Positions 37,417 to 39,099 of a stretch of DNA of 53,870 bases are shown piece after piece; the first letter of the stretch is position 1; every line of letters begins with the position of its first letter. A program made the translations under genes and the position numbers. The stretch is from positions 1-53,870 of the forward strand of contig DUOS01000043.1 of NCBI GenBank assembly GCA_012838745.1, written 5' to 3'. The stretch is from Treponema sp. (GTDB lineage: Bacteria; Spirochaetota; Spirochaetia; Treponematales; Treponemataceae). Below the pieces are notes generated by a model. The model searched no databases. It saw only the letters and a list, made by a program, of their open reading frames with translations, and was not told the DNA's origin.

Positions 37417-38361
37417 TTATCGTATAAAACCGGATTTCCAATACCAAATGGGCTGAGCTAAGGATGAAGGAAAGGGTTGGGTGTGGGTAAAATCGGGGAG
37501 CCAGTCAGAACTTTCTAGTAATTCTTGTAAAAAACCATCGTCAATGTCATAAAACTCAAGCAATCGGGTGAGGGTCGTGTGTTCTTTTTGTGAGACAAAG
37601 CGATTTTTTGGTTGATCTAAGGTTGAGTGCGTCTGCCCTTTTTCTACTGGAGTATATTGAGTCATAAGTGAAAGAAGTGCGCGATCTTTTAGATGTTTGG
37701 AAAACCAGTTTAGCACTGTTTTTGTATCTTCGAGGTTTTCGGGAAGGACGAGGTGGCGTACTATCATTGCCGGTTCCATTAAGCTGTTTTTTGTGTGTTC
37801 TGCCATAAAAAGAAGGGCGTTTTTAGCCGTTTCAGGATAATCAGGAGCGCGAAAAAAGCGATTTGCTATCTCTGGATTTAGTGTTTTTAGGTCTGGAAGC
37901 CAGCAATCTACTAAGCCGTCAAGGAGCCTAAGTGCATCAACGGTTTCATAGCTCGAAGAATTCCATAAAAAAGGGAGAGAAAAACCTTTATTGCGTGCAG
38001 TGCGCATCATGCGAGCAATTGCAGGAATTGCGTGGCTGCCAGTAACAATATTTATATTTTCAGCCCCTGCTTCTTGAAGTGCTGTGCATATTGTAAGAAA
38101 TTCTGTGTCCGAAACAATGGTCCCCATTGCATCGCGCGAAATTTGGTAGTTTTGGCAAAAAGAGCAGCCGAGATTACATCCCGTAACGAATATTGCCCCT
38201 GAGCCACCTGTTCCAGTAATGGGAGGTTCTTCGCCAAAGTGGAGGCCAGCCCAAGCAAGGCGAAGATTAGCGGTTTCTCCGCAAAATCCAGTTTCTCCCG
38301 CGTTTCTGTTTACTTTACAATTTCGGGGACAGAGCATGCACTGTTCATAGGCTAGTTCCAT
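37417..38361 (-). CDS. Radical SAM protein, PflX/PflA-like
   Basis: The 314-aa protein has an N-terminal Cys cluster (CMLCPRNCKVNRNAGETGFCG) like COG1313/PflX proteins. The radical SAM motif CNLGCSFCQNYQIS near residue 62 gives the CxxxCxxC for the 4Fe-4S cluster. SAM-binding strands follow (ENINIVTGSHAIPAIARMM, VDCWLPDLKTL). Such proteins resemble pyruvate formate-lyase activases, but the target is unknown. No glycyl-radical enzyme gene is adjacent. The start has no SD; TATACT lies 9 nt upstream. Confidence 0.87.
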   Translation of the reverse strand: MELAYEQCMLCPRNCKVNRNAGETGFCGETANLRLAWAGLHFGEEPPITGTGGSGAIFVTGCNLGCSFCQNYQISRDAMGTIVSDTEFLTICTALQEAGAENINIVTGSHAIPAIARMMRTARNKGFSLPFLWNSSSYETVDALRLLDGLVDCWLPDLKTLNPEIANRFFRAPDYPETAKNALLFMAEHTKNSLMEPAMIVRHLVLPENLEDTKTVLNWFSKHLKDRALLSLMTQYTPVEKGQTHSTLDQPKNRFVSQKEHTTLTRLLEFYDIDDGFLQELLESSDWLPDFTHTQPFPSSLAQPIWYWKSGFIR

Positions 38362-38370
38362 AGTTTTTTG

Positions 38371-38376
38371 AGTATA
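38371..38376 (-). promoter_or_regulatory. -10 box of the PflX-like gene
   Basis: TATACT on the minus strand, 9 nt before the ATG at 38361 and directly downstream of the terminator of the structured RNA. No clear -35. Confidence 0.4.
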
Positions 38377-38386
38377 GCAGGGTCAT

Positions 38387-38420
38387 TTAAAATAAAAAAG
38401 CCGGTCTAACACCGGCTTTT
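38387..38420 (-). terminator. Terminator of the structured RNA locus
   Basis: Stem AAAAGCCGGT / ACCGGCTTTT (38396-38420) with a 5-nt loop. On the minus strand it is followed by TTTTTTATTTT. Confidence 0.88.
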
Positions 38421-38641
38421 GAGGCTTTTTCTCCGTTCCCGGAGGTGTCCTAACATGGACTTGGCCTGATTAGTACCCCCCACACCTTTAAAGATGTGGG
38501 TGAAATAATTAAGTCAAATCGCCGGACTCTAACCGGCCTGAAACGTAAGGCGGATCACCCATAGTAAACCTCCATATATTCGAAAGAAAGAGACGAGTGC
38601 TGTACAAGCACTGTCCTCATTCGCAATTCTTATTCGCTCCT
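38396..38641 (-). ncRNA. Candidate structured RNA of about 245 nt, family unknown
   Basis: On the minus strand, downstream of TTGACT-17-GACACT, is a run of hairpins. In 5' to 3' order they are: AGTGCT/AGCACT extended by GAC/GTC (38590-38618); GCCT/AGGC (38536-38551); GCCGG/CCGGC (38521-38537); CCCACATCTT paired with its complement (38479-38500); GTCC/GGAC (38447-38460); CTCCG-GGAA-CGGAG (38431-38444); and the terminator stem. Three loops share GTTAG. A 17-codon frame with a strong SD lies inside. The sequence lacks hallmarks I know for tmRNA, RNase P RNA or SRP RNA. 6S-like RNA, a translated leader RNA, or a relic of an IS200/IS605-type end are the alternatives. Confidence 0.55.
38509..38562 (-). 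CDS. 17-codon micro-ORF inside the structured RNA
   Basis: GGAGG lies 7 nt before the ATG at 38562. The peptide reads MGDPPYVSGRLESGDLT and then stops. Its codons overlap the GCCT/AGGC and GCCGG/CCGGC hairpins, so ribosome movement would change the RNA fold. The Pro-Pro pair could slow translation. It is not rich in any one amino acid, unlike classical attenuator peptides. The frame could be fortuitous, but the SD is one of the better ones in the window. Confidence 0.45.
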   Translation of the reverse strand: MGDPPYVSGRLESGDLT

Positions 38642-38647
38642 AAATTA

Positions 38648-38676
38648 AGTGTCGTGTCCCGCATAAGGGAAGTCAA
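38648..38676 (-). promoter_or_regulatory. Candidate promoter of the structured RNA
   Basis: Minus strand TTGACT, 17 bp, GACACT. The -35 is good and the -10 weak. It lies about 40 nt after the stop of the 128-aa gene. Confidence 0.4.
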
Positions 38677-38712
38677 GGGTAAACGTGAGAATTCTTCAAG
38701 CATTTGGTATGT

Positions 38713-39099
38713 TTACACTTTGCCCCGCGAAACAATGACGGTCATAATTTCGGTAAGCGTTTCCATATCCAGAGATTCTGCTTCTGCCGAAACAATTTCT
38801 CGGATTTCTTCCCAAGCCTTGTCTGGAAAGTCCATGGTGTCGTCGAACTCCCCATTAATCAGTGCCATAAGAGCTAAAAGACTTTGGAGAGCTATTGCTC
38901 GCTTATCATCGGTGGTAAGGTTTAGCCCAAAATTTTGGTGCCAAAAACCTGCTAAAGCTTTTGCAAGGATTTCCGATGAACGGTTCCATTCAAGAAAACT
39001 CCGTTGGAGTTCAGCGCTTAACGCCTGTTCTTTGCCGTCTCTTATAAAACGGGCGGTTGTTCTCTCGGCGTCAGAATAAAATTTATCGAGGTTAGTCAT
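38713..39099 (-). CDS. Hypothetical protein, 128 aa
   Basis: The small soluble, all-helical-looking acidic protein contains DKFYSDAERTTARFIRDG, KRAIALQSLLALMALINGEF and WEEIREIVSAEAESLDM. No motif recognised. TATAAT sits 6 nt before the ATG, in the short gap shared with the divergent PTS IIA gene. The structured RNA follows downstream on the same strand. Confidence 0.7.
   Translation of the reverse strand: MTNLDKFYSDAERTTARFIRDGKEQALSAELQRSFLEWNRSSEILAKALAGFWHQNFGLNLTTDDKRAIALQSLLALMALINGEFDDTMDFPDKAWEEIREIVSAEAESLDMETLTEIMTVIVSRGKV

Follow-up and report, generated by a model that had tools for sequence, protein, structure and literature searches.

Short open reading frames (ORFs) with a Shine-Dalgarno (SD) sequence and slow codons near a structured RNA are found in leader-peptide (uORF) attenuators and in arrest peptides, including those of the RAPP type with Pro-Pro. 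These systems act in cis before the gene that they regulate, and in arrest peptides the motif lies at the end of a peptide that spans the tunnel. Free small RNAs with a terminator and a small ORF are also known, among them the dual-function RNAs SR1/SR1P and VcdRP. The rnTrpL/peTrpL RNA of Sinorhizobium, which is released from the trp operon leader, is a leader-peptide RNA that acts away from its gene and is thus a precedent for a role in trans. The uORF motifs odc1 and uORFC-6-1, which come from comparative screens (PMC8632094), are likewise structured RNAs with a conserved short ORF; those considered here each lie upstream of one gene class, and none is described as a free spirochaete RNA.

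The RNA analyzed here shares with leader-peptide and arrest systems the short ORF with an SD and the slow codons beside a structure, and in both the position of the ribosome is likely read by the RNA. It may therefore resemble leader-peptide systems in its mode of action, but it fails their defining feature, a common downstream gene, and its transcript ends at once. Its Pro-Pro motif lies at codons 2–6, unlike that of arrest peptides. In contrast to SR1/SR1P and VcdRP, the peptide is unconserved beyond Pro-Pro and the spacing to a hairpin is kept instead; unlike rnTrpL, it has no operon. Our favored reading, held with slightly better than even confidence, is that of a conserved and widespread stand-alone RNA gene whose micro-ORF would serve as a ribosome-position sensor with two states and a readout in trans.

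The window is the whole 53,870-nt stretch of Treponema sp. contig DUOS01000043.1 that was analyzed. Its minus strand between positions 38676 and 38394 reads as the layout of a single transcription unit, with promoter-like boxes, a 5′ hairpin, an SD, a micro-ORF, hairpins, and a terminator. A predicted −35 box TTGACT (38676–38671) is separated by a 17-nt spacer from a −10-like box GACACT (38653–38648), and TTGAC was kept at the −35 place in all seven aligned genus members. The 5′ hairpin of the transcript, predicted by folding (38618–38590), could be drawn in relatives, where its sequence was not conserved. The SD, GGAGG (38573–38569), was kept in relatives and is followed by a 17-codon micro-ORF with its ATG at 38562 (38562–38509; MGDPPYVSGRLESGDLT, then stop), of which Met-x-x-Pro-Pro is the conserved part, with variation at wobble positions only. 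Hairpin H1 (GCCGG..CCGGC; 38537–38521) begins 16 nt after the first nucleotide of the first Pro codon. It is followed by hairpin H2 (38500–38479), in which CCCACATC pairs with GGTGTGGG, and by a 3′ domain (38467–38422) in which helix P1 (AGGC at 38467–38464 with GCCT at 38425–38422) encloses P2 (38460–38447) and P3 (38444–38431). The unit ends with the intrinsic terminator AAAAGCCGGTGTTAGACCGGCTTTTTT (38420–38394), a stem at 38420–38398 and then a T run, which was near-invariant within the genus; a stem of the GCCGG type was kept in most families.

The six hairpins, the strong terminator, the possible promoter, and the 17-codon frame with a spaced GGAGG had already been noted on this strand in a sequence-only reading, and all were confirmed. 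A promoter-like box pair was also present upstream of 68 of the 129 members described below, compared with 4 of 123 control stretches. Judged by these sequence signals, the element is an independent unit with promoter and terminator, and it is well supported as a putative free-standing gene whose product is a structured RNA of about 270 nt.

The distribution of the RNA was determined by searches of increasing breadth. Seven of 12 genomes of the genus, the window's own among them, gave BLAST matches to the element or to its terminator, and the loci, when read, each carried the whole element directly before a radical SAM gene. The best DNA identity among the genus homologues was 74%, and the invariant parts were the SD, the AUG, CCGCC, the spacing to the GCCGG/CCGGC hairpin, the 3′ domain, and the terminator. 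A covariance model built from five genus members (R1) matched 12/12 genus genomes and 45/274 family genomes. Among the 394 genomes of the order, the second model (R2) matched 92 (E ≤ 0.001); among the 395 of the class, the third (R3) matched 93 (E ≤ 1e-4). Because weak model matches can be bare terminators, every sequence was read individually, and retention required an SD, a start codon, and an early proline in the micro-ORF. The 129 sequences that passed were checked for a terminator too. Out-of-class matches in three genomes (f34 and f46) were terminators without SD or micro-ORF, so model E values near 1e-6 were no proof without the micro-ORF check. Matches at L231, L232, L233, L234, and L161 were discarded for the same failing, and a pattern match in a viral contig was unconfirmed by the covariance model. 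No convincing match was obtained in the complete genomes of g13 and g14 or in a 1.1-Mb genome.

Pro-Pro forms occurred in at least 14 families (f1, f5, f12, f15, f17, f56, f60, f69, f70, f71, f72, f81, f82, and f83). Named carriers include Brucepastera parasyntrophica RmG11, Candidatus Treponema faecavium, Candidatus Avitreponema avistercoris, Spirochaetales bacterium Spiro_10, and termite-gut Treponema MAGs, and judging from these records the class of the carriers would be Spirochaetia. Two tandem copies of the RNA were seen in the genus member G001 (L014:1501–2003), and G246, G248, G255, and G258 each carry two or more copies at separate places.

No Rfam 15 family scored above its gathering score on the RNA in the window or in 34 relatives, and a relaxed threshold gave only terminator-like chance matches. 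A literature search of open-access papers found no published description of it. The RNA therefore appears to form a previously undescribed family with a wide distribution in the class Spirochaetia. A diverged housekeeping RNA of the 6S kind was considered at this point, as the gene is single copy and free-standing and the genus has no RF00013 match elsewhere (none at E ≤ 1 in the 12 genus genomes and none in the window). The lack of an Rfam match on the RNA and its relatives speaks against such an origin, as does the anatomy, which offers an SD and a translated ORF instead of a rod with a central bubble; a tmRNA is present elsewhere in the genome. We regard a 6S-like identity as very improbable. 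The RNA is not a tmRNA, since ARAGORN found none in the window and the separate one exists in the genome.

The fold of the RNA was more stable than expected for its composition. Its energy was −87.6 kcal/mol compared with −68.2 kcal/mol for dinucleotide shuffles (z = −4.0), and none of 200 shuffles was as stable. Helices H1, H2, P1, and the terminator were then evaluated in the 34-member alignment on which model R3 is based, whose members come from four families (f1, f5, f12, and f15). Standard pairs made up 92.4% of these helices compared with 68.6% in shuffles, double changes numbered 160 compared with 44, and the covariation score was 0.543 compared with 0.142 for shuffles and at most 0.108 for slid controls. 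The alignments were fitted to a covariance model, which favors structure, but base changes cannot arise from fitting. All five pairs of H1 and all six pairs of H2 covaried across relatives, although the sequence of H1 was variable in some genera. P1 was kept in distant families and showed compensatory changes, as did P2 and P3 inside it, which covaried in a genus-rich set. These results demonstrate that the four helices H1, H2, P1, and the terminator covary strongly.

Conserved homologues with compensatory changes, syntenic within the genus, are what had been proposed as a check on the suggestion of a regulatory or free-standing RNA, and that suggestion is now supported. Two details of the same reading did not hold across relatives: the GTTAG loops shared by three hairpins are peculiar to the window sequence, and the micro-ORF, said to run through two stems, runs in the conserved fold through H1 only, because its stop codon precedes the next stem. 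The idea that translation would remodel the RNA fits this anatomy.

Evidence for translation of the micro-ORF was obtained from the pattern of its variation. With the start codon chosen by the SD alone, CCNCC was in frame in all 79 sequences that have it, at four distances from the AUG (+4, +7, +10, and +13). Among the 51 Pro-Pro members of the order, the first two nucleotides of each Pro codon were invariant (51/51), and the third varied (G43 A7 C1 in the first codon; T29 G9 C9 A4 in the second); the codons flanking Pro-Pro varied mainly as GAN, giving an exchange of E and D. The start of the ORF is thus under coding selection, as indicated by the in-frame CCNCC and the wobble-only change. 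The first Pro codon was CCG or CCA in 78/79 and CCU in 0/79, and for the second CCU was commonest (46/79). In E. coli, CCC/U followed by C causes frameshifts and is selected against (PMC8129111), and given this, avoidance of CCU in the first codon is the pattern expected of a truly decoded Pro-Pro. The combination of SD, AUG, and Pro-Pro within codons 2–6 occurred in 85 of 129 members compared with 25 of 70,016 control windows, a comparison that is partly circular as the models hold the SD, AUG, and CCGCC columns; frame, wobble pattern, and spacing are free of this circularity.

The same base choice bears on the possibility that CCNCC is a motif of the RNA, pairing with GGNGG of the SD, and that the ORF is incidental. 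CCNCC and GGAGG are indeed partly complementary. However, U at the center, the base that would complete pairing with GGAGG, was used in 0/79, and sequestration of the SD by CCNCC was rejected on account of this base choice. The in-frame position at four distances and the variation of the flanking codons, mostly at wobble positions too, also argue against an RNA-level motif, which we consider scarcely credible.

Past codon 6 nothing was conserved, and ORF length ranged from 6 to 28 codons (for example, MEPIEL, METPPKRK, MDTPPEVA, and MENPPE...). No conserved functional peptide was recognized among these ORFs, in which only Pro-Pro is kept. This weighs on the explanation of the element as a dual-function small RNA, in which the product would be the micro-peptide, bound to a protein partner, and the body of the RNA would serve for stability or base pairing. 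Coding selection on the ORF start agrees with such a role, and small RNAs of that kind are known, such as SR1 and VcdRP. Against it, conservation is limited to Pro-Pro and a loose context, lengths vary widely, residues past codon 6 follow the hairpin and not a peptide, and some ORFs are merely METPPKRK or MDTPPEVA. A dual-function RNA is therefore unlikely in our judgment.

Most members of the genus g16 have Pro-Thr (MQFPTK) or a single proline in place of Pro-Pro. The hairpin of its members, such as L048 and L080, still lies near the usual distance, and they provide a natural variant for the role of the prolines. Overall, the micro-ORF appears from its codon pattern to be genuine, and its conserved element is the early Pro-Pro (Pro-Thr in one genus) and not the end of the peptide. 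The sequence-only reading had overlooked the conserved parts, namely, the SD, the AUG, the Pro-Pro codons, and the hairpin at a fixed distance, as well as the reach of the RNA far beyond the genus.

The distance between the prolines and H1 was determined within a search window of 10–20 nt. Counted from the first base of the first Pro codon, H1 started after 15–16 nt in 2/2 members with that codon at position 2, 17/18 with it at position 3, 75/98 at position 4, and 8/11 at position 5; with a wider search window, the same spacing was found in 54 of 76 members in the order. The distance from the AUG to H1 accordingly shifts (about 20, 23, 26, and 29 nt), whereas that from Pro to H1 is constant. 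A bacterial ribosome reaches about 15–16 nt beyond the first base of the codon in its P site. A ribosome whose P site is on the first Pro codon and whose A site is on the second would thus have its leading edge right at H1. It is chiefly this fixed distance that suggests a readout of the ribosome by the RNA at that point.

Neighboring genes were compared among 121 members. The downstream gene shared the strand of the RNA in 63 and ran opposite to it in 58, which indicates that the RNA is not the leader of the radical SAM gene. Upstream neighbors in other families, by inspection, include serC-like and uvrC-like genes. In the window, the RNA lies between a 128-aa ORF and the radical SAM gene, and no TnpA or TnpB is adjacent. 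The 128-aa ORF (38713–39099), upstream of the RNA, had no Pfam or NCBIfam match and was conserved with the RNA in the genus wherever the locus reaches that far.

A transposon-derived RNA (an IS200/IS605 end or omegaRNA) had been raised as the main alternative in the sequence-only reading, where the hairpin at 38479–38500 was likened to IS200/IS605 right ends. The RNA sequence is present in a single copy in the window's genome and is syntenic in the genus with no adjacent TnpA/TnpB. Copy number and synteny thus exclude a mobile element, and the chance of such an origin is negligible.

The radical SAM gene (38361–37417, minus strand) has no SD, and a TGCTATACT box (38361–38376 region) ends 9 nt before its ATG, directly behind the terminator of the RNA. 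A TATACT/TATAAT box was found at the matching place in the genus members read, where the radical SAM genes also lack an SD. Having its own TATACT box and no SD, the gene is suggested to produce a leaderless message of its own. This bears on a cis attenuator, in which the behavior of the ribosome on the micro-ORF would decide termination before the radical SAM gene. The gene does come directly downstream of the RNA in the genus and in members of g3, g4, and g7, and H1 and the terminator share GCCGG/CCGGC, so that an alternative pairing between them is possible and is the minimum free energy structure in the window. However, this cross-pairing was barely stronger for members' own partners than for mixed members (−13.9 compared with −13.5), and 3.4% of shuffles were as good, a figure not corrected for kinship. 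Antitermination by pairing of H1 with the terminator is considered unlikely on this ground. Together with the opposite downstream gene in 58/121 members and the separate box of the radical SAM gene, this makes a cis attenuator decidedly improbable.

A stand-alone RNA with a ribosome-sensing micro-ORF is thus the reading that we pursue, and the following course of events may be envisaged. Transcription would run from the gene's own promoter to its own terminator and yield a structured RNA of about 270 nt, and ribosomes would initiate on the micro-ORF and reach the early Pro-Pro codons. Once the first and second Pro codons occupy the P and A sites, respectively, formation of the Pro-Pro bond, which is the slow step, would take place while the leading edge stands at the foot of H1. 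H1 could stay closed during this step, and the next ribosome step would begin to melt it. The RNA would then have two states, set by the speed at which ribosomes pass the prolines, which may depend on EF-P, prolyl-tRNA, or elongation in general, and a changed 3′ domain or RNA lifetime would be read out in trans. EF-P is encoded in the window's genome. We propose tentatively, at somewhat less than even confidence, that this class-wide free RNA contains a trans-acting switch made up of a hairpin and of a ribosome that slows at the early Pro-Pro with its leading edge against that hairpin. The slow-down at proline, the change of state of H1, and the action in trans are thus put forward as the conditional part of this reading.

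In E. coli lacking EF-P, PPE and PPD pause, PP-aromatic does not, and PP-basic does so only after an acidic residue (PMC4140641). The residue after Pro-Pro was E or D in 44 of 79 members, and the window has PPY; by the E. coli rule, the PPY of the window and many PPK and PPV members would not pause. The Pro-Pro bond itself is common to all Pro-Pro members despite their differing next residue, and the Pro-Thr or single proline of g16 counts against a Pro-Pro sensor. An early Pro-Pro also promotes peptidyl-tRNA drop-off, which is relieved by EF-P (PMC8934632). Drop-off at the early Pro-Pro would fit ORFs whose ends do not matter and is an alternative to pausing.

The retention of the RNA across at least 14 families and its absence from Rfam suggest that it likely performs an important job. 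The design, in which a hairpin follows a translated Pro-Pro at the distance of one ribosome edge, offers a sharp and cheap test of whether free RNAs sense elongation speed or EF-P activity. If this is true, elongation would be sensed by free RNAs, beyond gene leaders, through a ribosome-reading RNA with no gene attached, and spirochaetes, whose RNA regulators are poorly known, would gain a class-wide regulator to study.
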